A stretch of 64,000 nucleotides of DNA from Flavihumibacter petaseus NBRC 106054 (GTDB taxonomy: Bacteria; Bacteroidota; Bacteroidia; Chitinophagales; Chitinophagaceae): NCBI RefSeq assembly GCF_000974785.1, contig NZ_BBWV01000001.1, positions 1,178,001 through 1,242,000 of the forward strand, read 5' to 3'. Below the pieces are notes generated by a model, which ran no database searches, had not been told where the DNA came from, and worked only from the letters and a program-made list of their open reading frames with translations. A program made the translations under genes and the position numbers. This document shows positions 1 through 16,256 of the stretch, piece by piece; the first letter of the stretch is position 1; each line of letters starts with the position of its first letter.

Positions 1-361
1 TAGATGGTGCATAACCATAAAATCGAACGCGATTCAAAGATTCAGCAAAAACCGTTTCCACAACATAGCCCTTATACCTCGTCAAAAAAAATATATCCAC
101 CTGGCAATCCAAAATGAGCGTAACCTCGCGAATTTCACCCTTGTATCGCCAAATCTTCACAACCGGTAAACTTTCGATAATCTTCTGTATCAACGATTCA
201 TCAGCATCCAGAATACCAATATCAATGTCAGGATCATGAGAAATAAATTTAGCACCCCTCACAAACCCCAAGCATGTCCCGCCTATAACAAACCAATCCG
301 GTACAATAGGATCCAACATTTCTCTAACCCTATTGACAGAACTTCTCAAAATACTATTCAT
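1..361 (-). CDS. LicD-like transferase, partial (3' end outside window)
   Basis: An open frame starts with ATG at 361 and runs off the left edge after 120 codons without a stop. The N-terminal part has GGTCLGFVRG followed by HDPDIDIGI. This is the Gly-Gly plus Asp-x-Asp signature of LicD/fukutin-type nucleotidyltransferase-fold proteins, which usually transfer phosphocholine or a related phospho-group to a glycan. It follows the mini HTH gene and glycosyltransferase on the same strand in the AT-rich island. A role in decorating a sugar or peptide product is therefore inferred, not shown. The C-terminal half is not visible, so the substrate and intactness cannot be judged. A minimal nucleotidyltransferase-fold protein is the alternative. 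Confidence 0.7.
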   Translation of the reverse strand, partial: MNSILRSSVNRVREMLDPIVPDWFVIGGTCLGFVRGAKFISHDPDIDIGILDADESLIQKIIESLPVVKIWRYKGEIREVTLILDCQVDIFFLTRYKGYVVETVFAESLNRVRFYGYAPS

Positions 362-484
362 TCTTTATCACAATTATGATGCTTCCAGTGTAAAGACACC
401 TATTCTCAAATCGGTTGTAAAATCAACTTGACGAATTCTATCACGTTACCCATATTATACCGGCAACTGTCCACCAACTTTCAA

Positions 485-724
485 TCAAGAAACACCAGAC
501 TTCACAAAACCACAAATAAAATACCCTTCTTCCTCATAATAATAACAATTTCGAGATCTACAATACCTAATAACTGCACCCAGTTGTTTCAGAAAGGCAA
601 TGTAGATATATAGCGTTCGCTCAGAAATCGCAAGTTTTTTCGCCAACTGCTTTGGTGTACCAGTAGATTTTGTCCGAATCAAGAAATCCAATCTAACTAT
701 CCTATGAATAACCTTTTGTGACAT
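485..724 (-). CDS. Mini HTH protein (79 aa), paralogue of the one at 11519-11749
   Basis: This small protein carries an HTH of the DeoR/HTH_11 type, seen as LIRTKSTGTPKQLAKKL followed by a second helix with TLYIYIAFLKQLGA and a basic, Tyr-rich tail. The start at 724 (MSQKVIHRI) is chosen over an upstream ATG at 775. From 724 it aligns end to end with the 76-aa paralogue at 11519-11749, and it no longer overlaps the glycosyltransferase. Such tiny HTH proteins are often seen beside Bacteroidota peptide-natural-product loci. A DNA-binding regulatory role is likely. There is no ligand domain, so what it senses is unknown. Confidence 0.75.
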   Translation of the reverse strand: MSQKVIHRIVRLDFLIRTKSTGTPKQLAKKLAISERTLYIYIAFLKQLGAVIRYCRSRNCYYYEEEGYFICGFVKSGVS

Positions 725-752
725 ACGAGGAAATATGTTAGAAACCCTATAG

Positions 753-2009
753 TCATTTTTCAATAAGACGGTCAATCAACTGCAAATAAGAATCTCCCAT
801 AAGCTGACTTGTGAACAAACTCCTAGCCCTAGTGATGCCCGTATCAGTAAGGCGTTTTGAAAGGTTACTATCCTTCAATAGCCGGTCAATACGTACAGTA
901 ATCTCTACGGGCTTCAACGTACGCTCACCCTTGTCATCGTGAGAAACGGGTATCATCAAACAATCAATCCCGTCGTCAAACATCTCCTGCAAACCATCTA
1001 CAGCTGAAACGACTAATGGTATTGACCAAAACCGCATTTCAATAGCACTAAAACTGCACTGCTCCATTAAGGATGGCAATACACCAACATCTGCAATAGC
1101 ATACCATTTCTGCAGAAGTTCCCGAGAAATCTTATCAGTAAGAACAATTCGACTCCAAACTGGCTCAGCGCTCCGCAGCACTTCTCCCAAACTACCCATC
1201 CCAATCAATACCAATCTACTATCCGGCCAATCTTTCAAAAGAGACCTAAAAGCTTCAACAAGAAAAAAGACACCCTTATTAGCGACTACTCGACCCGAAA
1301 ACAATACAATCTTCTCCCTTTCACCAATCCCAAATTCCTTTCTGATTGCAATCTTATCATACTTTACAAATTCCGGTTCTGCAATTCCATTGTATACAAT
1401 ATTCAATTTTTCTTCATCAACCCCTAATACACCTTTAAAGAATTCCTTTGCACAATTCGTAACTGTAACTACACCATCTGCAGCCTCAACCATTGCAAGC
1501 TGGTACTCCGTCTTAAAAAATGCCTCTGGGCAAAAAGATACATTTCTGTCTTTCCATTCTTGTGCAAAAACCGAATCTTCTACCTTAATGCAATCTTTCC
1601 AAGACCATCCATGATGAACATAAACTACAGTGCATTTAAAGAAATCCTTTACCTGTTTCACCAGGCTCAATTCTGAAATAGAGTTAAACAAAAAAACCAA
1701 ATTCTCTTTCGTTGCCAGTATTGGATAAATTACTTGGAGAATTCTTTTCCCAAGGACAGTTGTAATGTTATCAACACTGGCAGAAAGGAATAAACCATTG
1801 CCTGGACATGGAATATGTACGTAGTGCAGCCGGTCATTGTCAAATCTCTTTACTTCAGGATATTTGCGGCATTCTGTAACAATAATCGTTACCTCAATGT
1901 CCTCCTGCCTGCCAAAAATCGCCAATAATTCATCAGTATGGGCCCCTAGTCCGAAAAATCCTTGCATTTGATCGCTACAGAACAAAACAATGTTCTTCAT
2001 CGTTTTCAT
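753..2009 (-). CDS. GT4-type glycosyltransferase resembling the GG-Bacteroidales peptide-system family
   Basis: This 418-aa protein has a two-Rossmann GT-B layout. The N-terminal acceptor half runs to about residue 215. The donor half contains LFSGRVVANKGV, a GMGSLG turn, and the E-x7-E region PSLMEQCSFSAIEMRFWSIP typical of GT4. The EQCS...IEM form recalls, from memory, the glycosyltransferase family described with GG-Bacteroidales peptide maturation systems (TIGR04157). It lies 83 bases after the LanC-like gene on the same strand. I infer that it glycosylates either the cysteine-rich peptide of this locus or a surface glycan. ATG 2009 is used; ATG 2000 is equally possible. Confidence 0.82.
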   Translation of the reverse strand: MKTMKNIVLFCSDQMQGFFGLGAHTDELLAIFGRQEDIEVTIIVTECRKYPEVKRFDNDRLHYVHIPCPGNGLFLSASVDNITTVLGKRILQVIYPILATKENLVFLFNSISELSLVKQVKDFFKCTVVYVHHGWSWKDCIKVEDSVFAQEWKDRNVSFCPEAFFKTEYQLAMVEAADGVVTVTNCAKEFFKGVLGVDEEKLNIVYNGIAEPEFVKYDKIAIRKEFGIGEREKIVLFSGRVVANKGVFFLVEAFRSLLKDWPDSRLVLIGMGSLGEVLRSAEPVWSRIVLTDKISRELLQKWYAIADVGVLPSLMEQCSFSAIEMRFWSIPLVVSAVDGLQEMFDDGIDCLMIPVSHDDKGERTLKPVEITVRIDRLLKDSNLSKRLTDTGITRARSLFTSQLMGDSYLQLIDRLIEK

Positions 2010-2092
2010 ACCATTTATCTAATTTGAAATAGTAAGTCGAAATGATACCAGTACATACCCCCAAATTCAAAACTCGAACCAATTTTTTATTG

Positions 2093-3178
2093 TCAATTAA
2101 CGACTCCAATTAACGGAAGCCATTCGAATCGCCCTCTTTCCATAGAAATCAACGGCAGAGCAACTCTACAAACTCCTCGATCAAGACCTATTGGAACACA
2201 TCTCTCCGATTCAGAAAATGGAAACAATCTTGGCAAAGCATTTTCCTTCAAACTACCATGTAAGGATTGCCTCAATTCAGAACTAAGTACGTTCGCTTCC
2301 AAAATATTGTTATCGTTACCGATAAAGTACAACCATAAACTAGCAAATCCGATGTCGCTGAATGGAATGCTTCCAACCTTTGTCGCTGCGATAGCAATCC
2401 ACTTTTCAAAAGAAGCAAGAATCTCCTGATAACTCAAAAAACTACCATCAAAGCGGCAACACCTGAATAACACAAAATAGCACTCCAGCTGCTCCCATGA
2501 AAACAAAGACCTTCTTAAATGAGAAAAACAATGACCCAAAATAGAATTAAGTAGTGTCTTTGCCGGTGACTCACACCAATCAATTTTCGCAACCTGTAAC
2601 AAAAAAAGGCAAACGCCTGGTAATCCAGTAAATATTCCCATCACAGGTAAAACGCTAGTTTGATAGCACCTTCCGATTTGCTCCACACTTAAACTGACGG
2701 CCTCTCTATACTTTAATCTGTCAGTCTCCCTTAACGTATATTTGGAATTATACCTAAATAGAAAATAGAGACCCAAACCAGCAACTCCATTAACGATACT
2801 AATGTCCTTTGTTCCATTCACGCGAAGTGCATCCAATATAAAGTTTTCACTCTCCCCCAAAATTTCAGCAATATCGTCTTGCAAGAATCCTTGATCCCCC
2901 AATAATTCAAGCAAAGCACCAAATCCAGAAACTCCACATCCATATGACACTGGCGTATATCTACCAACTTGCGAAATAATCTCCTCAATAAATGAAAATG
3001 CTAAACCTCCGTAGTAGTCAACCGGCAAATCACCACTTAGGCAATATTTATACAATACAACAGCTCCTTTCCCATTAAAAAACCCGATATTTTCATTAAA
3101 ACTTGAATTAAGTAGCAAGTAATTTGAAATCCTGGAAATAACGTCGTCACCTTGTCCAATCAGTTTCATGACCAACAT
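2093..3178 (-). CDS. LanC-like protein without visible zinc ligands
   Basis: This 361-aa protein is built of repeated Gly-rich helical turns. They read SYGCGVSGFGALLELL, IVNGVAGLGLYFLF and MGIFTGLPGVCLFLL, the alpha/alpha toroid pattern of lanthionine cyclases. LanC enzymes bind zinc with two Cys and one His in WCYG and CHG motifs. I see neither; the nearest Cys contexts are DWCESP and GVCRV. It is also somewhat shorter than the usual ~400 residues. No LanB dehydratase is in the window. It may be a scaffold or a cyclase relic rather than an active enzyme. It sits between the thioredoxin-like and glycosyltransferase genes on one strand. Confidence 0.65.
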   Translation of the reverse strand: MLVMKLIGQGDDVISRISNYLLLNSSFNENIGFFNGKGAVVLYKYCLSGDLPVDYYGGLAFSFIEEIISQVGRYTPVSYGCGVSGFGALLELLGDQGFLQDDIAEILGESENFILDALRVNGTKDISIVNGVAGLGLYFLFRYNSKYTLRETDRLKYREAVSLSVEQIGRCYQTSVLPVMGIFTGLPGVCLFLLQVAKIDWCESPAKTLLNSILGHCFSHLRRSLFSWEQLECYFVLFRCCRFDGSFLSYQEILASFEKWIAIAATKVGSIPFSDIGFASLWLYFIGNDNNILEANVLSSELRQSLHGSLKENALPRLFPFSESERCVPIGLDRGVCRVALPLISMERGRFEWLPLIGVVN

Positions 3179-3265
3179 CTTTTATAGCTCTCCTCCAAAA
3201 ATATTTTAACCAAGAACCACCATTAAGAATCTCTAAGAGGAAGCAATTACAAAATCGCAATACCA

Positions 3266-3895
3266 TCATAAAGTATTAACATAAGTAGCGATGTAAGACT
3301 CAAATCTGCTATCAGGAATAAAAAATGAAGTAGCTGCAGCATTAGGATTTAACACGAATACATAAGAATTATTATCCTTTTCAACTCCATAGGGCATATC
3401 ACCTTTCTTAACCCAAAATACCGGAAAATCAACCTCAGATATCTTCCTCCATTTCAAATAAGAATCATAGTTAGAAAAATCTACCAAAACTATAGTCTCA
3501 TAGTCTCTCTCAATTCCCTTATTACTCTTAATTAAACTAACAACCTTATCTGCACATTGATTACACCCAATCTCTGTATACCTGATAATTAACTTTCGCT
3601 TGTTTCCAGTAGCCAACTCACTAAGTCTAAAAGGCTGCTGCCTTTTCCCATCTTTCAGGTGATAGGCCAGAACTTTCTCTAGCGTCACAGCCCGATTTCC
3701 TTCTTTAAATGCAAGGTCAATTTGTTGTGTTACATATTGAAGTTTGAAATTAACATAATTCATGCTGTCCTTTAGTTCGACATTAGAACGCTTCAACATC
3801 GCATTGGTCCTTATTAGTTGGCTATAGTAAAATATCACAACTCCGCAAAAAACAACTAAAAGAAAAGAGAAAACAATATGATTTATTCTTTTCAT
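3266..3895 (-). CDS. Membrane-anchored thioredoxin-like protein (CNQC)
   Basis: This 209-aa protein has an uncleaved-looking hydrophobic segment at about residues 7-25 and a short helical linker. A thioredoxin-like domain follows, with CNQC at residues 111-114 (IRYTEIGCNQCADKV). A predicted topology puts the domain in the periplasm. Its ATG overlaps the stop of the beta-propeller gene by 4 bases, so the two are translationally coupled. Because the first gene of the operon encodes a secreted peptide with six cysteines, I infer that it oxidises, reduces or isomerises those cysteines. CNQC is not the common CGPC, and the canonical cis-Pro is not obvious by eye. Confidence 0.75.
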   Translation of the reverse strand: MKRINHIVFSFLLVVFCGVVIFYYSQLIRTNAMLKRSNVELKDSMNYVNFKLQYVTQQIDLAFKEGNRAVTLEKVLAYHLKDGKRQQPFRLSELATGNKRKLIIRYTEIGCNQCADKVVSLIKSNKGIERDYETIVLVDFSNYDSYLKWRKISEVDFPVFWVKKGDMPYGVEKDNNSYVFVLNPNAAATSFFIPDSRFESYIATYVNTL

Positions 3896-5082
3896 TTGAA
3901 TTTTACTTTTACTAGGTAGTTTACATCAAGGTCCTGATTCAAATAACCACTTAAAGTGTTGCTTCTACTCACCATATCCTTCAGATCTATTCCATTTACG
4001 ACTCCAATGTATTCATCAGTCACCTTATCATAAGCCTCCAAAGTAGGAAGCGTCAATCCGAATTTGGTTGATACAGTAAACGTTTTAGTATTGGCGACAA
4101 CCTTACCCTGCTGTTTGTTATAAAGGGTAAAAAATGTATCTCCAAACTCCCCTTTGCTATCCCGGGAAACAAAATATATATACTTTTCGTTCTCAATCCA
4201 ACGCCCATTTAATCTTGCATACTTCTTTAAAAAGGCAGCCTTTTCGTTAGGTGTTGTATGAGGGTCTTTATACTTTTCCAAATGTTCTCTGACAATTGGC
4301 AATACATCTTCTGGTAAATTATCTCTCTCGTATGCAACTTTATACCTAACAGTCGCACCCTGAGTAGAAATATCGTAAACGGAATTGTTATACGATTCAA
4401 AAAATCTCAACGTGTCATTATATGGAAAATAATGGTTACTAAATGTCAGCCAGGGGACACCTTCAAAAATGCGTTCAAAAGTATTGTCAACCCCAGTTAA
4501 ATCAAGCTGCTCATTCAAAATTCCTATATGAAACAGTTTGCCCTTATACGGCGCGTTAAATTGATTGAAATCAGCATATCCCGCATAAGATTTGGTACCT
4601 GGAATATCCCTAATGCTTGAAAAGTGATAAAACTCTGATCCTTTCGTGACTGAAAAATGGGCCAACGACGAATCAAACGTATATATCTTAAACTGAGCAT
4701 AATCATAAACCTGCAAATTTCCATCTCCATTTACCCAACAATCATGAATATTCAGTGCATCATTAGGCCCATCACCATTTTTCATAACAACCCTTTGAAA
4801 TTTCCCGGCACTATCAAATAGCAATAGCTTTGACCCCCTCCTGTCATACGCTATATAATTCCCTTTAAATGGTATCAATTTAAAAACACCAACCATGAAA
4901 TTCCCTTGCTCTTCACTTAAAGGAATAATTCGGACATCTTGTATAAATTCAGAAAGATCGAATTTGTCTACAAGAACATTATTGTCAACGAGTATCTTTG
5001 TGTAGGTAAGACTCTCGACCGGACTATCCTGACAGGATAGTAACAAAGCAAAAATAAAATAGGCAAACGTACTTTTAACCAT
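3892..5082 (-). CDS. 6-bladed beta-propeller lipoprotein
   Basis: This 396-aa protein has a short signal peptide ending in LLLSC, giving a lipidated Cys at about residue 17. The mature part shows the periodic blade pattern of Bacteroidota 6-bladed beta-propeller (TolB-like/BF3164-type) lipoproteins: strand repeats such as YIAYDRRGSKLLLFDSAGKF and LQVYDYAQFKIYTFDSS. Relatives frequently neighbour NVEALA-type peptide genes, which fits the gene upstream. It is likely on the periplasmic or outer-membrane lipid face. Its binding partner is unknown; peptide recognition is a guess from context. It is separated from the peptide gene by a strong hairpin at 5109-5147. Confidence 0.82.
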   Translation of the reverse strand: MVKSTFAYFIFALLLSCQDSPVESLTYTKILVDNNVLVDKFDLSEFIQDVRIIPLSEEQGNFMVGVFKLIPFKGNYIAYDRRGSKLLLFDSAGKFQRVVMKNGDGPNDALNIHDCWVNGDGNLQVYDYAQFKIYTFDSSLAHFSVTKGSEFYHFSSIRDIPGTKSYAGYADFNQFNAPYKGKLFHIGILNEQLDLTGVDNTFERIFEGVPWLTFSNHYFPYNDTLRFFESYNNSVYDISTQGATVRYKVAYERDNLPEDVLPIVREHLEKYKDPHTTPNEKAAFLKKYARLNGRWIENEKYIYFVSRDSKGEFGDTFFTLYNKQQGKVVANTKTFTVSTKFGLTLPTLEAYDKVTDEYIGVVNGIDLKDMVSRSNTLSGYLNQDLDVNYLVKVKFK

Positions 5083-5108
5083 AACGAAAATTATCTACAT
5101 AGGGTTTA

Positions 5109-5147
5109 AAGGAGGAGACAACATCCAGAAAGTTGCGTCTCCTCCTT
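5109..5147 (-). other. Intercistronic hairpin after the peptide gene
   Basis: A perfect 11-bp inverted repeat, AAGGAGGAGAC (5109-5119) with GTCTCCTCCTT (5137-5147), lies between the peptide stop (5155) and the propeller ATG (5082). On the transcribed strand it is followed only by TTT and then AAA, not a long U-tract. It may act as a leaky terminator or an mRNA-stabilising hairpin. Either would make the peptide more abundant than its downstream proteins. Confidence 0.7.
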
Positions 5148-5154
5148 GGAATTA

Positions 5155-5439
5155 CTATTTAGGCACACAATTTCTGGATGAAAATGTGCCGAAGCAAGAA
5201 ACGCCAGTACAATTGTATGGAGCGCCGTAAACTCCAGTAAAATTGCAATAGGTCCATTGCCCCACGCCCGCCCCACACTCCAACGTAACTAGCTGGTAAC
5301 AACCCATTCCACCGCCGCCTCCGCCTGTGGTAGTCTGAGCCATCGACTCCAATGAAAATGTGTTTAAAAGTCCAACAGACATAGCCATGACGCCAGCTGT
5401 CATAGTAATCTTCCTGAGAGATTTCTTTTGAGCATTCAT
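5155..5439 (-). CDS. Secreted six-cysteine peptide precursor, NVEALA-like
   Basis: This 94-aa precursor has a basic N-terminus (MNAQKKSLRK) and a hydrophobic stretch at about residues 11-29. SLESMA at 29-34 would suit signal peptidase cleavage after Ala34. The spacing small/hydrophobic-Glu-x-hydrophobic-Ala resembles the NVEALA motif of Bacteroides secreted peptides. The mature part starts QTTT, then six glycines (39-44), then a core with Cys at 47, 55, 65, 77, 82 and 91 and many Gly, Thr and Tyr residues. An even Cys number suits three disulfides. A TAnnTTTG box lies about 55 bases upstream. It is the first gene of the operon. No homologue is recognised with certainty, and the activity is unknown. 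Confidence 0.72.
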   Translation of the reverse strand: MNAQKKSLRKITMTAGVMAMSVGLLNTFSLESMAQTTTGGGGGGMGCYQLVTLECGAGVGQWTYCNFTGVYGAPYNCTGVSCFGTFSSRNCVPK

Positions 5440-5751
5440 AACTGTGATTAGTTAATTAAAAAATGTTCCAATTCCATTAATTGAAACGAACCTGCCAAAA
5501 CTAATGACCTTTAGTCCGACCATGCAGGACGCAGAAGATTAATTAAATCTGCTCCAAAATTAGCAGGTTGTTTCCCCTAAAAATCGAAAACGAAAACGGT
5601 CATGAAAGGAAATTACAATAGGCGTCCGGCCACACCGGACGGAACACTTTAAACTGGAAATATTTCATTTATTGCGACGAATATAACAAGCCAATACACA
5701 ACAACATTCGTCCATATCATTTTCAATCCATTACATCCTGGTTAAAACAAT
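5440..5751. promoter_or_regulatory. Divergent promoter region of the peptide operon and the RND operon
   Basis: This 312-base AT-rich gap separates the peptide gene (minus) and the adaptor gene (plus). On the minus strand two exact Bacteroidota -7 boxes are visible: TAGTTTTG at 5503-5496 and TAATTTTG at 5562-5555. Neither has a clear TTTG -33 box. The nearer one predicts a 5' UTR of about 50 bases. No exact TAnnTTTG box was found for the plus-strand adaptor gene. No ORF worth calling lies here. Confidence 0.6.
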
Positions 5752-6927
5752 ATGAACATAAACACTTTAGTCAAAGGAGAATATCTTCCAATTCTTTGGA
5801 TTTGCAACCTAAAACGGAGGCCCTCCGTTCACTTGCCATATTCGTTCATACTGATATGCTGGACATTCCTGCTAACCTCATGCGTTGACAGCCCAGAAAG
5901 CAGCCTGGCAAAAGAAATAAACATAAAAAAGGACAAGATCGAACCCATTAAGGTATCAGTAGCAACTAGTCGGCTGGGCCAGTTTCAGTATATCATTAAT
6001 TCAAATGGAAAAGTCAAAGCTCAAAATGAACAAATTGTATCAACAGAGATTAATGGAAAACTGGTCTCATCCAAGGCAAAGACTGGAAAATTTTTTTCCA
6101 CTGGAAGTATCATAGCCGAAATTGAAACGACTCCCATTCAACTAAGGCTTGAAAAAGCGAAACTCTCATTGTTTAACAATCAGAAGGAATACGAGAGCCA
6201 GCTTCTTGGGTATGAATACCTGCTCAAGGGTAAAACTGAGAGTGAAGCCGAAGCCATCAGGACCAAACTAAGAATTAGCTCTGGTGTATCTGCAACAGAA
6301 CTTGAAATCCGAGAGATTCAATATGAACTGAATAAGGCTATAATACGAGCACCGTTTAACGGAGTACTGTCAGATGTAAAAATCCAAGGGGGAGAAACAC
6401 TAAAATCAGAACAAGAGCTATTCCACATTTATGACAACAATAACCTATTCCTAGAAGTGAATGTGCTGGAATCTGACGTTATCCTGCTCAAATCTGGTAT
6501 GCCTGCCGAAGTATCCCCAATTTCCTCTTCAGAAAACAGGTTTACGGCAATAATAGATGAAATAGATCCTTACATCGCAGAAAACGGCATGGCAAATGTC
6601 AAACTAAAAATAGGCAAACCTATCGGCAGGTTTGACAGAATAGTACTATACCCAGGTATGAATTGTTCTGCTATGATCAAAATTCCAATGGGTCAGTCCA
6701 TCCTGGTGCCAAAAGACGCCATAGCTATGCGAAATGGTATCCCTGTGGTCTTTTCTCTAGAAAGCGGAAAAGCCAAATGGCATAATGTAAAAGTCGGGCG
6801 TGATAACGGAATAGAAGCAGAAATAATTAATGGCCTGCAAAAAGGAATGAAAATTATTACGACCAATAATCTACAACTGGCACACGATGCACCCGTTGAA
6901 CAAAACGACTCAACGCATGAAAAGTAA
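5752..6927 (+). CDS. RND efflux periplasmic adaptor lipoprotein (HlyD/MFP family)
   Basis: This 391-aa membrane-fusion protein has a long N-terminus, then a hydrophobic signal ending LLTSC with a lipid-acceptor Cys at 44. The mature part has the biotinyl-lipoyl half-motifs (EINGKLVSSKAKTG and IIRAPFNGVLSDVKIQGGE) flanking an alpha-hairpin, then beta-barrel and membrane-proximal domains (LVPKDAIAM). It should bridge the RND pump to the outer-membrane channel. The pump gene starts 40 bases downstream on the same strand. The start could be later than 5752, because 20 residues precede the basic n-region KRR, but no alternative ATG is available in frame. Confidence 0.92.
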   Translation: MNINTLVKGEYLPILWICNLKRRPSVHLPYSFILICWTFLLTSCVDSPESSLAKEINIKKDKIEPIKVSVATSRLGQFQYIINSNGKVKAQNEQIVSTEINGKLVSSKAKTGKFFSTGSIIAEIETTPIQLRLEKAKLSLFNNQKEYESQLLGYEYLLKGKTESEAEAIRTKLRISSGVSATELEIREIQYELNKAIIRAPFNGVLSDVKIQGGETLKSEQELFHIYDNNNLFLEVNVLESDVILLKSGMPAEVSPISSSENRFTAIIDEIDPYIAENGMANVKLKIGKPIGRFDRIVLYPGMNCSAMIKIPMGQSILVPKDAIAMRNGIPVVFSLESGKAKWHNVKVGRDNGIEAEIINGLQKGMKIITTNNLQLAHDAPVEQNDSTHEK

Positions 6928-6967
6928 GAATATAATCATCAGCTATTAAGCCGGAGAATTCCAATTT

Positions 6968-9900
6968 ATGACCAAGTACCTTATCAAGCGTCCAATAGGA
7001 ATATTGCTCAGCTTTATTGTTGTCATCATCTTTGGACTAGCATCACTCTGGAAAATACCAGTATCACTTCTACCAAATATTGACGTTCCTCGTATTGTAA
7101 TTCTGGTCCACTATCCAAATACGGCTGCATTCAACCTGGAACAGAATATTATCAGGCCAATTAGAGAAAGTCTAGGAACCATTAGCCATATTGAAAAGAT
7201 AGAAAGTCGCTCGGCAAATCATTATGGCATTGTTACCCTAATATTTGAGTATGGGACAAAAATGAACCTTGCCTATATTGAATCTAACGAAAAACTAGAT
7301 CAACTATCGAGTAGTTTCCCCAGGGACATGCAACGTCCAATTATAATTAGGACCAACACTTCTGATATACCAATTATTAGAGTCCAGGTTACCCCAAAAT
7401 CCCAATCAGAATATCTTGGCGTATCAGAACTATCGGAAAAAATATTAAGAAAAAGACTGGAACAAGTGGAAGGTGTTTCCGTCGTAGATATTAGTGGACA
7501 ACAACATGGAGTGATAACAGTCACGCCTTACCTGGAAAAGATAATCGCGCTTAATCTAGACGAAGATGATTTAACTAGAACAATTCAAAATGCCAACAAA
7601 GATCTAGGAGGCATGAGTGTTAGAGATGGTCAGTATCGCTACTTCATTAAAGTAACCAATGCGTTGGAATCAGCAGACAACATAGCACGGCTACCAATTA
7701 CTACCAAAAATGGAACTGTACTGCAATTACAACAGATCGCAAAAATAAGCTGGATTTCAGAGAAACCTACAGGCTTTCATTTATTTAACAATAAAGAAGG
7801 CTTGGTACTAACTATCCAAAAACAGCCGGATAGCCGCATGAATGAATTAGTTCCCAAAATTAAAGAACAAGTACGGCAATTCACAAAAGACTACCCAAAT
7901 ATTGACTTTTCGCTTAGCCAGGATCAATCATTCCTACTTGAAGCGGGAATTTCAAACTTATATCAGGATTTGATCTACGGAGGCATACTCACAATCCTGC
8001 TACTATTCTTATTCTTAGGGAATTGGGTTTCACCATTTCTCATGAGTATAAGCATACCAACATCTTTGATAATTACTTTCATATTCTTCTATCTATTTGA
8101 CATCTCCTTTAACATCATTTCATTGTCCGGACTAGCATTGGGAATCGGGATGCTAATTGACAATTCAATAGTCGTAATTGATAGTATAAGTAGAAAAAGG
8201 AAAAATGGAATGACTGCTATTGATAGTGCAATAAACGGAACAAATGAAGTAATCGTTCCTGTAATAAGTCAGGTACTTACTACAGTAGCCGTCTATTTAC
8301 CATTAATTCTTCTAAGCGGAGTAGGAGGAGCACTTGTATTCGACCAAAGCATAGCATTAACAATATCATTGTGCGTTTCATTATTGGTCGCTTTCATTCT
8401 GGTACCGATATTATACAAGCAAATATCAAATAACAACGCCAGTAATCAAAACGACGATTCAGTATTCTACAAATATGTTTCAGTCGCATATCACAAAATG
8501 ATTGATCATATACTTCGCCATAATAAAATATACTTACTAATTACCATATCACTAATGCCTATTGGAATATTCATTCTTGCAAAAATGCCAGTTAACGGAC
8601 TTCCAAAAATTGAACGGAAGGAAAGCATGATCCACATAGACTGGAATTCGCCAATCGACGCAAATGAAAATTTGATCAGAACAAAATCACTTTTGAGAGA
8701 AATCCAAGGAGGTTGTAATGTAACTGAAGCCGAAATCGGCATACAACAATTTACCATCCAGCAAGAAAAATCTGCAGTACTGAATACCGAACTCTACTAT
8801 GCTTGCGATACCGAATCAGAAAAAACCAAAATGGATCAGACCGTAAGGAACTGGATTGAAAATTACTATCCGAACGCCTTTTATCAAATCCTGGATGCAC
8901 CCAACGCATTTACTCAACTATTTTCTACCAGTGCCCCATTTCTGGAAGCGCGCTTTAAACCAATATTAAACCAGGGAGGGGAAGGAGCTTGGAAAAATTT
9001 ACAGCATGTGATTGATTCCATTAAAAATAAATCTTTCAAACTAGGTGACGAATTCCAAAAGGAGATCATGGTGGACTTAATACTACATGATCAGAAAATG
9101 GCTCTTTACGGGGTAACCAAGGAGCAAATAGAAACTAAACTTCATGAATTGTTTGGCAACTATACCATAACAAATATTAAAAGATTTGGAGAAATAAGAT
9201 CAATCCTCTTAAAAACTAACCAAAACCAAATATCGAATCAGCTCGCCACAGTGATTCAGGGAAATAACAATGCTTACTATCCACTAAACCAGTTCATTAC
9301 GATTTCCTATTCGAGTACCCCAAAGTATTACACATCAGACAAGTCGGGTCAATACAAATCCATCAACTTCGGTGAAGAAACTTTCGATCCCGAAATGTTG
9401 CAAAAACAAATAAAAAAATATGCACTTGATTCAGGTTACAATGTTCAATTCGTCGGACGATATATAGATGGCAAAAAACATAGTCAACGATTATGGTATA
9501 TCTTCTTCATAGTACTGATATTACTCTATACCATCCTTGTTATTCAATACGAGAATCTCATACAACCATTCCTAGTGATGCTTACAATCCCTTTAGGAAT
9601 AACAGGCGGCGCTATTACACTCTGGCTGGCGGGTGGCACACTGGATATTATGGCAATTATTGGATTTGTAGTAATTCTGGGCCTTATCGTTGACGACCCA
9701 ATTCTAAAGATAGATACACTAAACAAACTAGAAAACAAGTATCTGGCGCAAGGCTTAAGGCACGATAAGGATCTACTATATAAGATGATCCACGAAGCCG
9801 GAGACCTTTGCCTAAAGCCGCTTCTAATGGTTTCACTTACAACAAGTATAGCCTTAGTTCCCGTACTATTTGTTGGCGGCATTGGTAATGATATGCAAAA

Positions 9901-10012
9901 ACCGTTGGCTATAGTGATCATCGGCGGGTTGACTGTGGGCACCTTCTTCACCACCTGGTTTATCCCCTTGGCATATTGGTATTTCACAAAATGGAAGAAT
10001 AAAATTAAATGA
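6968..10012 (+). CDS. RND (AcrB-like) efflux permease
   Basis: This 1014-aa inner-membrane pump has the RND plan: TM1 (RPIGILLSFIVVIIFGLASL), a large porter loop, TM2-6, a second loop and TM7-12. The TM4 relay reads GMLIDNSIVVID, with Asp398 then Asn399. The TM10 counterpart reads LIVDDPILKID, with Asp909 and Asp910. This is the Bacteroidota type with one TM4 aspartate rather than the AcrB Asp-Asp pair. The TolC gene overlaps its stop by 4 bases. It should take substrate from the periplasm or outer leaflet. The context suggests the Sec-exported peptide as substrate, but drug efflux cannot be excluded. Confidence 0.95.
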   Translation: MTKYLIKRPIGILLSFIVVIIFGLASLWKIPVSLLPNIDVPRIVILVHYPNTAAFNLEQNIIRPIRESLGTISHIEKIESRSANHYGIVTLIFEYGTKMNLAYIESNEKLDQLSSSFPRDMQRPIIIRTNTSDIPIIRVQVTPKSQSEYLGVSELSEKILRKRLEQVEGVSVVDISGQQHGVITVTPYLEKIIALNLDEDDLTRTIQNANKDLGGMSVRDGQYRYFIKVTNALESADNIARLPITTKNGTVLQLQQIAKISWISEKPTGFHLFNNKEGLVLTIQKQPDSRMNELVPKIKEQVRQFTKDYPNIDFSLSQDQSFLLEAGISNLYQDLIYGGILTILLLFLFLGNWVSPFLMSISIPTSLIITFIFFYLFDISFNIISLSGLALGIGMLIDNSIVVIDSISRKRKNGMTAIDSAINGTNEVIVPVISQVLTTVAVYLPLILLSGVGGALVFDQSIALTISLCVSLLVAFILVPILYKQISNNNASNQNDDSVFYKYVSVAYHKMIDHILRHNKIYLLITISLMPIGIFILAKMPVNGLPKIERKESMIHIDWNSPIDANENLIRTKSLLREIQGGCNVTEAEIGIQQFTIQQEKSAVLNTELYYACDTESEKTKMDQTVRNWIENYYPNAFYQILDAPNAFTQLFSTSAPFLEARFKPILNQGGEGAWKNLQHVIDSIKNKSFKLGDEFQKEIMVDLILHDQKMALYGVTKEQIETKLHELFGNYTITNIKRFGEIRSILLKTNQNQISNQLATVIQGNNNAYYPLNQFITISYSSTPKYYTSDKSGQYKSINFGEETFDPEMLQKQIKKYALDSGYNVQFVGRYIDGKKHSQRLWYIFFIVLILLYTILVIQYENLIQPFLVMLTIPLGITGGAITLWLAGGTLDIMAIIGFVVILGLIVDDPILKIDTLNKLENKYLAQGLRHDKDLLYKMIHEAGDLCLKPLLMVSLTTSIALVPVLFVGGIGNDMQKPLAIVIIGGLTVGTFFTTWFIPLAYWYFTKWKNKIK

Positions 10013-11481
10013 TGAAACAATATTTAGTTCTCATATCCACTACTCTACATTTTGTTGCCGCCAGTGCCCAAAATGTACAACTTTCACTCGATGACGTAAT
10101 CAAAATTGCACAATCGAGTTCAATGAAATTTAAGCTAACAGAAACCCAAAAACAGATAAGCTACTACCAATTCCAAAGCTATAAAAGTGAATACAAACCG
10201 CAAATCACTTTCTATGGAAACGCACCAGCCTATAATAAAGAATACCTTGCTGTTCGCCAACCGGACGGTACAATAAAATTTCAAGCAATAAGCCAAACAA
10301 ACTCCAACTTTGGTTTAGGCCTAAGTCAGAAAATCGCCCTCACTGGTGGTGAGGTTTCGGTTAACACTGATCTAACCAGGTTTGATGACTTTCAGTCAAA
10401 AGAAAAACAATTCAATGCCACCCCCATCTACATACGCTTAACACAACCCCTATTTGCATTTAATGAGCTTCGATGGAAAAAACGGATTGAACCACTAAAA
10501 TTTGAAGAATCGAAAAGGATATACATTGAACAGATGGAAGAAATCGCAAGAACATCTGTCAACCTTTTTTTTTCAGTATTAAACGCGCAAACTAACATCA
10601 ATATAGCCTCGTCCAATCTGCAAGCTGCAGAATTGAATTATGAAACAGAAAATAAACGAATCAAATTAGGAACCACAACTGAAGACAAAATACTTCAATT
10701 AGAGATGCAAGTGTTGTTAAGTCAACAAAACCTAGAAAAAGCTAAATATGATCTTGAAACTTCAAATCTGAACCTGAAAACATTTTCTGGCTTGAACAAT
10801 AATAACACCTACGAATTGCTAATTCCTGACAATGTCACATTCTTTTCAGTAAATGCTGAATCAGCAATAGAATATGCAAGAACCAATCGATCCGCCTTTA
10901 TTACATTCGAACGAAGAAAGCAGGAAGCCCAGCGAGATATGGCCGAAGCAAAAGCCGACAAGCAACAAGTACTATTGACAGCAAGCCTTGGATATAACAA
11001 TACAGGCGAAAACATAGGTCAAACATATCATGATCCAAAAGATCAACGAAGGCTAAATATCGGATTTAACATTCCTGTAGTAGACTGGGGGCGTAGAAAA
11101 GCAAGATTTAACACTGCATCGGCATTAGAAAAGTTCACAATATTCAATAATGAATCAGAAGAAAACATCCTGGTTCAGGAGATAATTACGCAAGCAAAAA
11201 GTATAGAACTTTTAAGAAGAAACATCGCCCTGTCTAAAACTTCTGATTCTGTTTCCCAACGGCGATATGCAATCGCAACCAAACTCTATCAAGTTGGAAA
11301 GCTATCAATCACTGATCTGAGTTTGGCACAAATAGAAAAAGACAACGCTAAAAGGAGCTACATAGATGCTCTCAGACAATTTTGGGATAGCTACTATTTG
11401 ATGAGAAAATTAACGCTATTTGATTTTGAAACAAATACCCCATTGTACAATGACAACCAAAATTCTTTACAGAGTAAATGA
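10009..11481 (+). CDS. TolC-family outer membrane efflux channel
   Basis: This 490-aa protein has a signal peptide (MMKQYLVLIS...AASA) and two repeats of the outer-membrane efflux protein fold. Its long Gln/Lys/Glu-rich coiled-coil helices are visible at LQAAELNYETENKRIKLGTT and its C-terminal counterpart QRRYAIATKLYQVGKLSITD. It overlaps the permease stop (ATGA), so adaptor, pump and channel form a complete tripartite exporter. The sequence is Asn- and Lys-rich like its island neighbours. Confidence 0.94.
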   Translation: MMKQYLVLISTTLHFVAASAQNVQLSLDDVIKIAQSSSMKFKLTETQKQISYYQFQSYKSEYKPQITFYGNAPAYNKEYLAVRQPDGTIKFQAISQTNSNFGLGLSQKIALTGGEVSVNTDLTRFDDFQSKEKQFNATPIYIRLTQPLFAFNELRWKKRIEPLKFEESKRIYIEQMEEIARTSVNLFFSVLNAQTNINIASSNLQAAELNYETENKRIKLGTTTEDKILQLEMQVLLSQQNLEKAKYDLETSNLNLKTFSGLNNNNTYELLIPDNVTFFSVNAESAIEYARTNRSAFITFERRKQEAQRDMAEAKADKQQVLLTASLGYNNTGENIGQTYHDPKDQRRLNIGFNIPVVDWGRRKARFNTASALEKFTIFNNESEENILVQEIITQAKSIELLRRNIALSKTSDSVSQRRYAIATKLYQVGKLSITDLSLAQIEKDNAKRSYIDALRQFWDSYYLMRKLTLFDFETNTPLYNDNQNSLQSK

Positions 11482-11518
11482 ATCGCCAGGATACAATCCT
11501 TACAACCATTCTGAAAAT

Positions 11519-11749
11519 TCAACTCGCTTTAAAATTGAAGTGAAATTTTCCTTCGACCTCGTAGTAAAAACTATTTCGACGTCTACAAAATGAAATTGGC
11601 GCACCCATTGACTTCAAAAGTCCAATGTATTCATACAGTGTGCTTCGTGAAATATTCAATTTATTAGCAAGATCTTGTGGCGTGCCCGTGGACTTAGTCC
11701 GAATTAAATTGTCCAATCGATCTAAGCGGTCAATTACATGCTTTGCCAT
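11519..11749 (-). CDS. Mini HTH protein (76 aa), paralogue of the one at 485-724
   Basis: This protein contains LIRTKSTGTPQDLANKL and a second helix region TLYEYIGLLKSMGAPI, followed by a short basic/Tyr tail. Identity to the protein at 485-724 is clear over the full length. It lies on the strand opposite its neighbours, convergent with the TolC gene and divergent from the second RND gene. It is therefore well placed to control the promoter region 11750-11916. It has no effector domain. It is probably a local regulator, although it could be a leftover of a duplicated peptide module. Confidence 0.75.
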   Translation of the reverse strand: MAKHVIDRLDRLDNLIRTKSTGTPQDLANKLNISRSTLYEYIGLLKSMGAPISFCRRRNSFYYEVEGKFHFNFKAS

Positions 11750-11820
11750 TATTTCCGAATTGAATTATAGGAAGGTTTATGACACCAAACTATTAAAATT
11801 TGAGAGTAAATCAATCATTA

Positions 11821-11836
11821 ATGCAAACGTTTGCGT
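11821..11836. promoter_or_regulatory. LacI/PurR-like operator palindrome upstream of the second RND gene
   Basis: The perfect 12-bp palindrome GCAAACGTTTGC (11823-11834) has a further matching outer pair. It resembles LacI-family operators such as the PurR site. It lies between the divergent HTH gene and the RND gene. A weak -7 candidate, CAACTTTG, follows at 11859-11866. No LacI-family gene is in the window, so the regulator is unknown. Confidence 0.5.
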
Positions 11837-11916
11837 GATGAGAGGCAGAGAAATAAAACAACTTTGATCCGTCGTTTCCCGACTTAACGCAATGATAACA
11901 CAAGGCCAGAACTGAA

Positions 11917-14900
11917 ATGAGACAGAATAGCTACAACTTCCAGATTGACACTATAACACCGTTCCGGATAGTCACCCTCATTATCACTTTAATGGTTTCC
12001 AGTATCCTAATTATACCAAAACTGGATTTCGAGTCAAAAACCGAAAGTAACATTAACGAGTTCCAGATCTCCTTTGGGATTCCCAACTATAGTGAATTCG
12101 AAATTGAGCAACAGGCCACCTCCATATTGGAGACAGCCTTTTCTCAACTATCCGGTATTGAAAAGATAAAATCCTCATCGGGAAATGGCTATGGAACAAT
12201 CGCGATAAAATTCTCGAAAGGCACCGATATGGAATTCAAGAAATTCGAATTAACCTCGATGCTAAGGAGGATTTATAAGAATCTACCTCCGGAAACCACA
12301 TACCCAATTATCAATGGAGGTGCTGATAACAATGAAAAAGAATTTCCTGTTTTAGTTTACAACATTCAAGCACCCTTACAAACATCAGAACTAAAAAAAC
12401 AGGCTGAATCAATTTTCAGAAAAACGCTGGCGGGCGTAGATGGTATTAAATCAATCACCGTTTCAGGTTCTGAAAATAAAAGTCTTAGTATTAAGTATAA
12501 CATAGAAAAGTGCCGAGCCTGGAAAATTCAACCTGCGCTACTCAAAACTACATTAGATGCGTACCTCAACTCAAATTACATCGGTACTGTTAGTAGCACT
12601 GCCGGTGAAGAATTCTTTGTACGAATCCCTTCGACAGTTCATACTATAGGCGAAATCGGTCAAATTCAGATTCCATCAAACTCCAACACAACAATTCATC
12701 TAAGCGACATTGCACAAATTAATCTTGAAGAACAAAACGCTAAATCCTTTTTCAGAATAAACGGAAAGAATTCTCTTAATATATCGATCTATATACAAAG
12801 CAGCTTCAATAGGTTTCTATTGGCAAATGAAATCAAAAATACTATCAGGAAATCAGCTCCTCAACTATCAAATAGTTTCAATTTAGCTATATCATATGAT
12901 GACACTGCACATTTGTCCGACGATCTACAAAAAAACATTAAACTCCTTTTCTGGTCCTGCGGGATCATAATAATCCTGATACTAGCTTTTTACAAAGATT
13001 TTAGAACTAGGCTGGTGCTATTTTCAAGCATAATAGCAAATGTTCTACTTTCTGTACTGCTCACCTCCATAGCCCGTATAGAAGTTAACTCATTTACGAT
13101 AATTGCTCTAGGATTTTCAATTCTCCTAGGAGTGGAGCATACAATTGAAATGTCAAAATATTGCCTTAGGGAAAAGAAGAAATGGGGATACTGGGCCTTC
13201 TCTGGCGCGTTGCTTGCACTCGCAATACCGCTGTACCTGGTATCAAAATTAACAGTCACCAGAAATATCAACTTAAGTAATTTCTGCTTTGGAATTGCTC
13301 TGGTATTGTCATCTTCATTCATCGTTTCCATAGTATTAGTTCCCAATCTATATTCACTATTCTCCAATAATTTAAGCAGTAATCCAGCTGCAAACAATCG
13401 CATTCATAAAAACAAAACGTTAATCAGTAAGTCATACCTAAACTTGTATTATAGAGCAATTGAAACAATAGCAAATAAAAGAAAGATAGTTTTGACTATA
13501 CTCATTCTAATATTCGGACTTCCATTGTTTATGATCCCTACCAAATGGGAAGGTGATAGATGGTACCACAACGTTTTCACCCATACACTCGGTAGTGAAT
13601 TCTACCAGAAACAAATTCGTCCAACTGCCGATATATGGCTTGGCGGTATTTTAGGACTATTTGAGAGAGAGATTAGGGAAAAGGCCAATTACAGAAACTT
13701 AGATGAAACTAGACTTTATGTAAGAGCAGAATTGCCATTTGGAAATACAGTTGACCAAATGAATGGAATTCTAACTCAAATAGAAGAGTATTTATCTACT
13801 GAACAGGGAATTAACAGGTTTACGACACGCATACTTTCAGCTCAGAATGGAAATATTGAAATTAGTTTCCAAGAAGGATTTGACAGGAACAACTTTCCAC
13901 ATTTGATAAAATCACGACTCATCAATCGTTCCCTCAACTGGAATGGAGTCAAATGGAATATTTATGGAGTAGGTAAGGGATTTAGTAACGATGACGGTGG
14001 AGCTATTCCCAACTTTCAAATACTGCTTAAGGGGTATGACTTCAATGAATTGGAAAAACAAGCGATAAAACTAGGTGACAAATTAAGAAAATATAGACGA
14101 ATCCAAAATATCAATACAAATGAACTTGCCGACTACGGCCAAAGGCAAACCTGGGAGTACAAATTACAAATGGATAATAACAAAATGGCTCTATTCGGGA
14201 CCAATAAGCACAATGTTGTACAATTAATAGATGAAATAAGTAAACAGACAAACACTTATCAATATGTAATCCTGAATAATCAATTTTATCCGGTCCTGCT
14301 AAAAGAAAACAATGCCTCCATGTTTTCAAATTTCAATCTATTGAACGATCCTTTAGCCCTAAAATCAAATTCGCTCATAAGACTCAAAGATTTTAGTCAA
14401 TTGGAATTACAACTAGGCCCGAGCACTATTTACAAGGAAGACCGACAATACATCCGTATTGTAAGCTTCGAATACATGGGCTCTGGTGATATCGGAAATA
14501 GCATCCTAAAATTAAGTATTGCCGATGCCAATCGCGAGATGCCAACAGGATTTACTGCAACAAACAATATGGAAATCTGGAAAAATAAAGAACCACAAAA
14601 ACAAGTCCTCTATATATTGTTCGGATTGATTTCAATCTACTTTGTTTGTGGAATTCTTTTTGAGGACTTGACAAAGCCATTCGTAATTATAGGAATGATA
14701 CCAACTTCTTTAATAGGAGTTTACTTGAGCTTCTATTTTGGAAATGTTACGCTCGACCAAAGCAACCAGGCCGCCTATGTCATTGTGAGCATATTTGCAA
14801 TCCGTTCCGCGATTCTAATATTAACTGATGTTAGCAAGTCCTTTAGGATAAGACCTAAAGCTAACCAAAACCTGCTGTTGATTAAATCTGTAGCCACTCA

Positions 14901-15084
14901 CTTTCCTACATTTCTCTTCATTTTTATCGTGGTGTCTTGCGGACTACTACCATTCATTTTTGAAGGCCCAAACAAGATCTCTTTCTTTTCACTAATCGAA
15001 GGAATTTTAGGTGGACTGATTTTCTGTTTCTTAGGAACATTTGTTATTCTACCTGTCTATTTGTGGAACACAAAGCAACTTTGA
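11917..15084 (+). CDS. RND permease-like protein with altered proton-relay residues
   Basis: This 1055-aa protein has the RND topology: TM1 at about residues 17-38, porter loop, TM2-6, porter loop, TM7-12. At the TM4 relay it reads LLGVEHTIEMSK, with Glu407 and His408 where pumps have Asp-Asp or Asp-Asn. At TM10 it reads AIRSAILIL, with Arg963 where AcrB has the relay lysine. It is diverged from the pump at 6968-10012 and has no adaptor or channel of its own. It could be a partner subunit in a heterotrimer, as in MdtBC, or a pump with different coupling. Its separate divergent promoter region suggests independent control. Confidence 0.85.
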   Translation: MRQNSYNFQIDTITPFRIVTLIITLMVSSILIIPKLDFESKTESNINEFQISFGIPNYSEFEIEQQATSILETAFSQLSGIEKIKSSSGNGYGTIAIKFSKGTDMEFKKFELTSMLRRIYKNLPPETTYPIINGGADNNEKEFPVLVYNIQAPLQTSELKKQAESIFRKTLAGVDGIKSITVSGSENKSLSIKYNIEKCRAWKIQPALLKTTLDAYLNSNYIGTVSSTAGEEFFVRIPSTVHTIGEIGQIQIPSNSNTTIHLSDIAQINLEEQNAKSFFRINGKNSLNISIYIQSSFNRFLLANEIKNTIRKSAPQLSNSFNLAISYDDTAHLSDDLQKNIKLLFWSCGIIIILILAFYKDFRTRLVLFSSIIANVLLSVLLTSIARIEVNSFTIIALGFSILLGVEHTIEMSKYCLREKKKWGYWAFSGALLALAIPLYLVSKLTVTRNINLSNFCFGIALVLSSSFIVSIVLVPNLYSLFSNNLSSNPAANNRIHKNKTLISKSYLNLYYRAIETIANKRKIVLTILILIFGLPLFMIPTKWEGDRWYHNVFTHTLGSEFYQKQIRPTADIWLGGILGLFEREIREKANYRNLDETRLYVRAELPFGNTVDQMNGILTQIEEYLSTEQGINRFTTRILSAQNGNIEISFQEGFDRNNFPHLIKSRLINRSLNWNGVKWNIYGVGKGFSNDDGGAIPNFQILLKGYDFNELEKQAIKLGDKLRKYRRIQNINTNELADYGQRQTWEYKLQMDNNKMALFGTNKHNVVQLIDEISKQTNTYQYVILNNQFYPVLLKENNASMFSNFNLLNDPLALKSNSLIRLKDFSQLELQLGPSTIYKEDRQYIRIVSFEYMGSGDIGNSILKLSIADANREMPTGFTATNNMEIWKNKEPQKQVLYILFGLISIYFVCGILFEDLTKPFVIIGMIPTSLIGVYLSFYFGNVTLDQSNQAAYVIVSIFAIRSAILILTDVSKSFRIRPKANQNLLLIKSVATHFPTFLFIFIVVSCGLLPFIFEGPNKISFFSLIEGILGGLIFCFLGTFVILPVYLWNTKQL

Positions 15085-15498
15085 ACCTTGTCGTCGTAAC
15101 CATGAAACAATAATTCCAGTTCCATTCACTGTAACGCTATAATCAGAAATGGGAAGAGCTGGACATTAATCTGCGGCATTGCAACCACTATTTAATAATA
15201 ATTGGAAATCAGGGAACCGCTTGCCCGCTCGGAGTTTGTCGACGGCCGATTTAAACTAATGCGTAACTGTATGGAATAAACTCTTGACTATTAATCTGAT
15301 TTCTACAAATAATACGACTGCGATCTGAAAAGAATCTTATTCCAATTTAGGAATAGGTGGACAAAACCCGTAAAACAAACTGTAATTCAACCAACGGGAT
15401 CAAAACGAAAGAAACTAACTCAGAAACGATAAATCGTTTGCCAGCAATGCCTTTACAAGGGTTTCAAGTCGTTTAGCACTCATTTATTATTATGTAAG
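15085..15498. other. Gene-free AT-rich segment between the island and tRNA-Arg
   Basis: These 414 bases carry no convincing ORF on either strand; the longest start near the tRNA is 22 codons (15483-15415, minus). There is no visible terminator after the RND gene. The AT-rich composition continues up to the tRNA 3' end and stops there. This is what the end of an integrated element without its integrase would look like. Confidence 0.5.
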
Positions 15499-15570
15499 TA
15501 GCCCCGACAGGAATCGAACCTGTATCTAAAGTTTAGGAAACTTCTATTCTATCCATTGAACTACGGGGCC
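15499..15570 (-). tRNA. tRNA-Arg (anticodon CCT)
   Basis: The 72-base minus-strand sequence folds as a tRNA. It has a 7-bp acceptor stem (GGCCCCG with CGGGGCT, first pair G-U) and a D-stem GTTC/GAAT with one wobble. The anticodon stem GAAGT/ACTTT carries loop TTCCTAA, giving anticodon CCT. The T-arm is CAGGT TCGATTC CTGTC, and the discriminator is A. CCA is not encoded. Its 3' end faces the AT-rich island. Confidence 0.95.
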
Positions 15571-15710
15571 ATGGAAAGCGGTCTCGAAAGTGAAGCCACC
15601 TTTCCGGGGCTGCAAAAATAGTGGATTTCACCTTTCCCTGCGCCCGTCAAAAGAACAATTGCCCGCAGAACGCAACAAAGTACTAGCTTAACAGCCCATA
15701 ATGCTTCTAT

Positions 15711-16181: not shown

Positions 16182-16231
16182 AGGAGCTTTCCCGGCTATA
16201 CCCGAATACCCGGCAGGTGGGTGGAAATCAC

Positions 16232-16239
16232 TACCTTTG
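16232..16239 (+). promoter_or_regulatory. -7 box TACCTTTG for the TPR protein gene
   Basis: This exact TAnnTTTG match lies 17 bases before ATG 16257 and downstream of a competing ATG at 16221. It decides the start at 16257 and implies a leader of only about 12 bases. No clear TTG -33 box was seen. Confidence 0.6.
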
Positions 16240-16256
16240 CCGCCATTTCATCGACT

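Follow-up and report, generated by a model that had tools for sequence, protein, structure and literature searches.

The 64,000-bp window analysed here (the whole stretch of DNA, positions 1178001-1242000 within the 5.69-Mb genome of Flavihumibacter petaseus NBRC 106054) opens with genes for a small Cys-rich peptide with a Sec-type leader, a beta-propeller lipoprotein, a thioredoxin-like protein, a periplasmic adaptor, a TolC-type outer membrane factor (OMF) and two RND permeases, which we call RND1 and RND2. We think it probable that this locus belongs to a system, widespread among Bacteroidota, for secreting Sec-exported peptides, in which expulsion is carried out by the RND1/RND2-adaptor-TolC machine. 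The gene content, the conserved linkage, the pairing of RND1 with RND2 and the variable cores behind conserved leaders are demonstrated below, and the linkage seen in the sequences points to the peptide as the putative substrate that the pump would expel. The window locus elaborates on the conserved gene set and is a rare form of it. An earlier note on this DNA had grouped the peptide, propeller and thiol protein with RND-TolC as a single unit and had set conserved linkage of the peptide and RND genes as the check; that linkage was found in 14 close loci, where these parts are conserved together, and the proposal is borne out.

The close set consists of 11 relatives from named genomes (three of them contigs of genomes G084, G162 and G209), loci from G386 and G398, and the window itself; its 13 other loci lie in Pedobacter, Chitinophaga, Niastella, Paraflavitalea, metagenome-assembled genomes and further genomes. 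The propeller, a CxxC or DUF1573 protein, the adaptor, RND1 and RND2 were each present in 14/14 loci, and since most of the model building drew on these same loci this is a presence count and no blind test. A TolC-type OMF was present in 13/14 (in locus L063 only as a piece at the locus edge), the one missing being the Niastella stretch, where none was found. Directly upstream of the propeller gene, all 14 loci have a Cys-containing peptide gene with a Sec-type leader; the peptide filter alone gives 12/14, as the peptides of L064 and L142 are too long for it and were identified by eye. The genes from peptide to RND1 are all on one strand in the 13 other loci, with the order peptide-propeller-DUF1573-adaptor-RND1-OMF in Paraflavitalea and two peptides-propeller-DUF1573-LanC-GT-GT4-GT-adaptor-RND1-OMF in Pedobacter sp. 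Hv1, and with RND2 divergent in both. In L062 and L064 RND2 extends past the locus end, the adaptor of Niastella has only 228 aa, and both RND genes of Chitinophaga sedimenti are in pieces (L072:1-3117 and 9968-13202), reflecting either decay or an assembly error. Because these neighbourhoods are conserved in other genomes, the island genes belong together beyond chance.

The close form of the system is rare. An RND2 match at E<=1e-20 was found in 69/244 genomes of the family, only four of which (the source genome, G162, G084 and G209) exceed 400 bits, the rest reaching at most 91. RND1 orthologs at E<=1e-200 were found in 3/298 genomes of the order, source genome included. They form a discrete group, with 11 loci at 47-59% identity and the others listed at 31% or below, in a scan that kept 80 of 198 relatives. 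The RND2 subfamily reaches further, its profile matching 66/395 genomes of the phylum at E<=1e-100, and RND1 is also present in 30/33 RND2 loci outside the close set (5 of these 33 were chosen for also having NVEALA peptides); the misses are L201, at a contig end, L214 and L256.

The window has a full-length ACR_tran permease, an adaptor and an OEP channel, as in HAE-type RND tripartite pumps. To place the permeases we used a tree of 110 RNDs, 50 of them generic, taking every third of loci L073-L141; both the tree and the alignment leave out proteins below 950 aa (the L072 pieces, the L062, L064 and L202 parts and the 885-aa RND2 of L207). RND2 fell into one clade (30/30, support 1.0), as did RND1 once the most remote loci were set aside (24/24, support 1.0), and the 60 RND1 and RND2 proteins separated from the 50 generic RNDs with support 0.89. 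The whole RND1 set was not separated from RND2 in this tree, and a single ancient duplication may have given rise to the pair. In alignment columns read by eye, RND1 has D398, D910 and a basic residue at position 950 in 30/30 proteins, the window's included, the two Asp residues lying in what we take to be TM4 and TM10. At the position matching D910, RND2 lacks an acidic residue in 30/30, and its TM4 Asp is present in 28/30. One reading of these residue patterns is that RND1 would be the energised permease and RND2 its partner; MdtBC is a known precedent for a pump with two permeases.

Loci that took no part in building the propeller model provide a control. The model matches 8/13 and 7/7 remote RND2 loci (15/20), compared with 1/20 generic RND loci of the same family and 1/59 other RND loci, the latter being those of at least 12 kb among 69, with 10 shorter ones dropped.

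A link to the NVEALA family (PF14055) further supports a peptide cargo. PF14055 matches 2/149 genomes of the class, G697 and G802, and both were already known to us as carriers of the RND2 system. We examined 121 genomes from the family of G697, which is likely Bacteroidaceae-like because the control match lies in Bacteroides ihuae. NVEALA was found in 25/121 and RND2 in 25/121, and 17 genomes had both, compared with an expectation of about 5 (hypergeometric p=2.8e-9); counting only NVEALA matches over the Pfam cut-off, 12 of 18 genomes have RND2 against 3.7 expected (p=4e-6). Related genomes are not independent, so these p-values overstate the association. NVEALA and RND2 lie on one contig in 10/17 genomes, 4.3-14.5 kb apart and on the same strand in 9/10, with the NVEALA match over the cut-off in 7/10; they are on different contigs in the remaining 7/17. 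In L265 and L267 an NVEALA-propeller pair is followed in one direction by signal peptidase I, a TPR protein, adaptor, RND1, OMF and RND2. Within L227-L231, 10/11 NVEALA peptide genes are directly followed by a propeller-matching lipoprotein (one match of only 12 bits), and at the eleventh the lipoprotein comes after a 206-aa gene. The earlier note knew of no NVEALA-type system with an RND-TolC exporter; a general lack of one is not supported, since 17/25 NVEALA genomes carry the tandem RND, with no RND2 match in the other 8. The coupling of NVEALA and tandem RND is strong, not strict.

NVEALA loci resemble the window in having a Sec-type leader, a short, variable and often Cys-rich core, a propeller lipoprotein right after the peptide and, in many genomes, linked tandem RND1/RND2 with adaptor and OMF. 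Unlike NVEALA loci, the window has a peptide with no match to PF14055 or any other Pfam model, shows no match to the signal peptidase and TPR models (SPASE, TPRLP, TPRMEM) in positions 1-17000, and adds LanC, GT4 and LicD-like genes; the resemblance of its leader end to NVEALA was noted by eye only. Signal peptidase I genes were also seen in NVEALA loci at L228:4834-5724, L229:2264-3136 and L231:4292-5179, with TIGR02227 over its cut-off in L228, the one tested, and they are possibly dedicated to the NVEALA leader. Our literature search found no paper naming NVEALA and none giving its function or exporter.

The earlier note's expectation of Sec export agrees with the Sec-type leaders seen on the peptides by hydrophobicity filter and by eye; that of the window peptide ends in SLESMA, followed by Q (cleavage site placed by eye). 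Leaders are conserved and cores variable in three paralogue sets of chosen members, with identities of 0.77 and 0.29 in Niastella (3/4 peptides) and of 0.61 versus 0.29 and 0.89 versus 0.29 in the two NVEALA sets (4/6 peptides of G697 and 3/5 of G802); a core identity of 0.29 is near the level that short global alignments yield anyway. For the window, Pedobacter and Paraflavitalea peptides together the difference is only 0.43 versus 0.31. BLAST matches of the window peptide to Pedobacter peptides cover 33-35 aa at 46-52% identity, and the alignment puts them at the leader. Twenty-five peptides searched against Pfam at E<=10 gave weak matches only (DUF6520 in 2/25, best 0.0092). A more stringent version of the peptide filter failed to recover the window peptide; the second filter is the one used throughout.

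Cargo varies widely between loci. The peptides of C. solisilvae and C. varians look alike, and secreted peptides of two Chitinophaga species (L065:5646-7171 and L071:6349-7176) resemble CBM_14, a peritrophin-type chitin-binding domain, which Pfam confirms for the one tested, at L065:6280-6669. A core pattern C...G.V.G..N.C..G...C was recognised by eye in three genomes of two families (L050:1064-1297, L202:3983-4195 and L048:107-385), suggesting that some cargo classes may be widespread. The core stretch GNAEGTKxCC is common to peptides of two families (L202:6562-6768 and L200:8695-8976), which hints at transfer or strong constraint.

In the system as we picture it, a small precursor with a conserved leader would cross the inner membrane via Sec and be cut by signal peptidase, for which several NVEALA versions encode a signal peptidase I. 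Its periplasmic cysteines would be handled by the membrane-anchored CxxC thioredoxin-like protein and/or the DUF1573 protein, and the propeller lipoprotein encoded alongside may hold or guide it. The RND tripartite machine (RND1 and RND2, adaptor, TolC-type channel) would then take the peptide from the periplasm and expel it, and outside the cell it might act as a signal or an antagonist. In the source genome, the LanC-like and GT4 proteins may modify it in the cytoplasm first, perhaps together with the LicD-like protein, the nucleotidyltransferase and the kinase. A more ambitious version, which we hold only tentatively, is a dedicated two-step secretion of ribosomal peptides: Sec would deliver them, thiol processing would follow, and a heteromer of RND1 and RND2 would take the place of an ABC transporter in expelling them via TolC, with the propellers as cognate chaperones or immunity partners and NVEALA as one of the largest cargo classes.

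The thioredoxin-like label that the earlier note gave to the CNQC protein is supported by a predicted model with a thioredoxin fold (predicted local distance difference test, pLDDT, 72; predicted template-modelling score 0.54), consisting of one long N-terminal helix and one domain. The domain matches ResA, TlpA and DsbE-type structures (best E 2.1e-6, TM 0.70 by target), and among 16 sequences, the window protein included, C114 is invariant and C111 nearly so. ResA and TlpA types are often reductants, so the CNQC protein could reduce rather than form disulfides; thiol chemistry on the peptide is predicted and may run in either direction. Small membrane proteins with a CGCFG motif, presumably MauE-like, were observed near peptides at L210:657-1142, L212:18649-19128 and L213:877-1335, and may be redox partners of the thiol proteins.

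Several results weigh against secretion of the peptide by the RND pair. The window peptide matches 0 families in Pfam at E<=10, and the window RND2 carries E for D in TM4. Among the 13 remote RND2 loci, 5 have no propeller match and 4 no peptide candidate, and some of the 9 candidates look spurious. The thiol and DUF1573 models match 5/13 and 1/7 remote loci compared with 0/20 and 1/59 controls, showing poor sensitivity at that distance. The second peptide filter gave candidates in 12/14, 9/13 and 5/7 system loci and also in 6/20 and 29/59 control loci; those in the 20 look spurious by eye and those in the 59 were only counted, so the filter alone is a weak discriminator, and it is gene position and linkage to the propeller that carry the argument. 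On the NVEALA side, 3/10 co-located matches fall below the Pfam cut-off, and no RND2 match was found in 8/25 NVEALA genomes. Seven NVEALA regions from such genomes (two on contigs of at most 6.1 kb) contain no RND1/RND2. Conversely, no NVEALA match was found in 8/25 RND2 genomes, and the filter gives a peptide candidate in 2 of these 8 loci, one of which looks spurious. The RND2-less NVEALA loci (L258-L264) have propellers or signal peptidase in several cases, L259 has adaptor and OMF matches, and these loci may use another exporter.

These gaps leave room for a pump that exports something else, such as a lipid, a glycan or a small metabolite, with peptide and propeller serving as a periplasmic or outer-membrane regulator or structural element. 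RND pumps mostly move small amphiphiles, and RND2 loci without a peptide candidate and NVEALA genomes without an RND2 match would both fit. However, paralogous peptides with conserved leaders and unrelated cores fit a diversified cargo better than a fixed subunit, as does the imbalance in the 121-genome family, where one genome can have as many as 20 NVEALA matches but a single RND2 match, and we regard a different substrate as unlikely. Still less probable, in our view, is that the pump serves immunity, with antibacterial peptides leaving by another route and RND1/RND2-TolC clearing the producer's periplasm. The propeller-type lipoprotein after almost every peptide in the NVEALA loci read recalls toxin-immunity pairs, and RND pumps can extrude antimicrobial peptides, as described in PMC8277102. 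Against this, inspection of the island genes (open reading frames by eye; Pfam or NCBIfam on 15 proteins) revealed no further peptide exporter, and the pump is a trans-envelope machine found with peptides in all 14 close loci.

The LanC-like and TIGR04157-like GT4 genes also raise the question of whether this is a lanthipeptide or GG-leader cluster for a ribosomally synthesised and post-translationally modified peptide (RiPP), with cytoplasmic modification of the peptide by LanC and GT4 and with RND genes that are there only by coincidence. About four of the six distant LanC-like relatives in the family adjoin apparent peptidase-ABC genes, judged by eye, as such a cluster would suggest. Yet no dehydratase and no C39 peptidase-ABC exporter was seen among the island genes by eye and with Pfam, and the LanC match spans only profile positions 35-180 of 350. 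LanC occurs in 2/14 close loci compared with 14/14 for RND and propeller, and its profile at E<=1e-15 finds the source genome only among 198 genomes of the class. This explanation is largely refuted and we give it very little credence.

With secretion by the tandem RND as our preferred reading, its nearest counterpart is E. coli heat-stable enterotoxin II, which is described in PMC8277102 as passing through Sec, cleavage, a periplasmic disulfide step and TolC expulsion by MacAB-TolC. The route, from Sec through a periplasmic thiol step to a tripartite TolC machine, is the same; MacB belongs to the ABC transporters and handles many substrates, whereas here there would be two RND permeases, dedicated by linkage only. 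The same source reports MdtBC as a heterotrimer of two permeases in one RND system, RND-type export of lipodepsipeptides in Pseudomonas syringae, and export of RiPPs primarily by ABC systems that bypass Sec. MdtABC and other RND tripartite pumps share permease, adaptor and OMF with the window, and MdtABC also its two permeases; unlike them, RND1/RND2 form their own clade and are tied to peptides and propellers. The Bacteroidales RiPPs exported by peptidase-containing ABC transporters likewise have dedicated export of small ribosomal peptides, but use GG leaders and C39-ABC transporters. A survey of Bacteroidales RiPPs (PMC10352776) found peptidase-ABC exporters, and the words RND, NVEALA and propeller are absent from its main text. 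Our literature search found no description of a peptide/tandem-RND system. From the comparison with enterotoxin II/MacAB, RiPP ABC export and the RiPP survey, we rate the parts and the route as known, the engine (RND) as different and the cargo family as unassigned. If this is true, RND pumps would be extended from drug efflux to dedicated ribosomal-peptide secretion. Many NVEALA and unrelated Bacteroidota Cys-rich peptides tied to one tandem-RND machine would predict a large uncharacterised secretome, and the NVEALA linkage to tandem RND supplies a concrete knock-out target.

Table 1. Features of the peptide-RND locus (window positions unless a locus handle, L, is given)
Feature	Position	Strand	Remarks
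LicD-like protein, start only	2..361	-	whole 550 aa = L009:16709-18361
Short HTH_11 regulator	485..775	-	resembles the helix-turn-helix (HTH) protein beside RND2 in G084
GT4 glycosyltransferase (accessory)	753..2009	-	1.8e-18; nearest NCBIfam TIGR04157, 250 bits, cut-off 400
LanC-like protein (accessory)	2093..3178	-	2.9e-6, profile positions 35-180 of 350
Membrane-anchored thioredoxin-like protein, CNQC (C111, C114)	3266..3895	-	Pfam AhpC-TSA 19 bits, cut-off 26
6-bladed beta-propeller lipoprotein	3892..5082	-	DUF5128, PF17170, Pfam 9.8e-22; directly downstream of peptide gene
94-aa Cys-rich peptide precursor	5155..5439	-	Sec-type leader; 6 Cys in mature part
Periplasmic adaptor	5752..6927	+	HlyD/RND_mfp; RND_mfp above cut-off
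RND1 permease	6968..10012	+	ACR_tran 1-1020 of 1021, 523.6 bits
TolC-type OMF	10009..11481	+	OEP
Short HTH regulator	11519..11749	-	absent from the earlier note's gene list
RND2 permease	11917..15084	+	separate subfamily, mostly paired with RND1
tRNA-Arg (CCT)	15498..15570	-	island edge; variable site in genus
Choline-kinase-family kinase and nucleotidyltransferase	L009:14962-16607	kinase convergent	best NCBIfam GntI, under cut-off (kinase)

Every gene listed by the earlier note was found in its place (Table 1), and to these we add two short HTH genes (485-775 and 11519-11749) and, upstream in L009, the rest of the LicD-like gene, the nucleotidyltransferase, the kinase and a transposase pair that we take to be IS3-like. 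A 312-bp gap (5439 to 5752) lies between two divergent gene sets. The minus-strand set runs peptide, propeller, CNQC protein, LanC-like, GT4 and HTH, and continues mostly outside the window with the LicD-like protein and the nucleotidyltransferase. The plus-strand set runs adaptor, RND1, OMF and RND2, the last preceded by a short opposed HTH gene. Overlaps of 4 bp between propeller and CNQC genes and between RND1 and OMF genes suggest an operon-like arrangement.

The earlier note had also treated LanC, GT4 and LicD as parts of the system; all are present here, but they are not core, with LanC and GT4 together in 2/14 close loci and the LicD-like gene only in this one. The LanC-like and GT4 proteins are 39% and 51% identical to their counterparts in Pedobacter sp. 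Hv1, and they belong with the system there too, because they lie inside its peptide-RND1 gene series. As a marker of the system, LanC-like was dropped from the core after matching 7/244 family genomes at E<=1e-3, six of them weakly and in other contexts. For the LicD-like protein, the nucleotidyltransferase and the kinase, no convincing match was seen in the other 13 close loci. LicD is the weakest label in the locus and its function is uncertain, with 21.3 bits for the window part and 17.8 bits for the whole protein against a curated cut-off of 22.6, and an unusable fold model, made without an alignment, of pLDDT 41. The LicD-like protein, nucleotidyltransferase and kinase could together make and transfer a phospho-alcohol group, and the peptide may carry such a group or a glycan.

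The AT-rich island described in the earlier note is confirmed by a GC content of 37.5% at 1-15480 compared with 50.1% at 15571-64000, with its edge at tRNA-Arg. Sequence from the right flank is kept in 10/11 genus genomes searched, source genome included. No repeat of the tRNA region was found in L009 or the rest of the island. Where the tRNA-Arg regions of five other genus genomes were compared (L245-L249), a TPR gene near the tRNA is kept at 83-86% identity, and on its other side there was no match to the left-flank genes of the source genome. The genes adjoining tRNA-Arg differ between these five by eye, suggesting that it is a variable site and that the island was probably gained horizontally. 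In L248, the gene adjoining tRNA-Arg resembles a serine recombinase.

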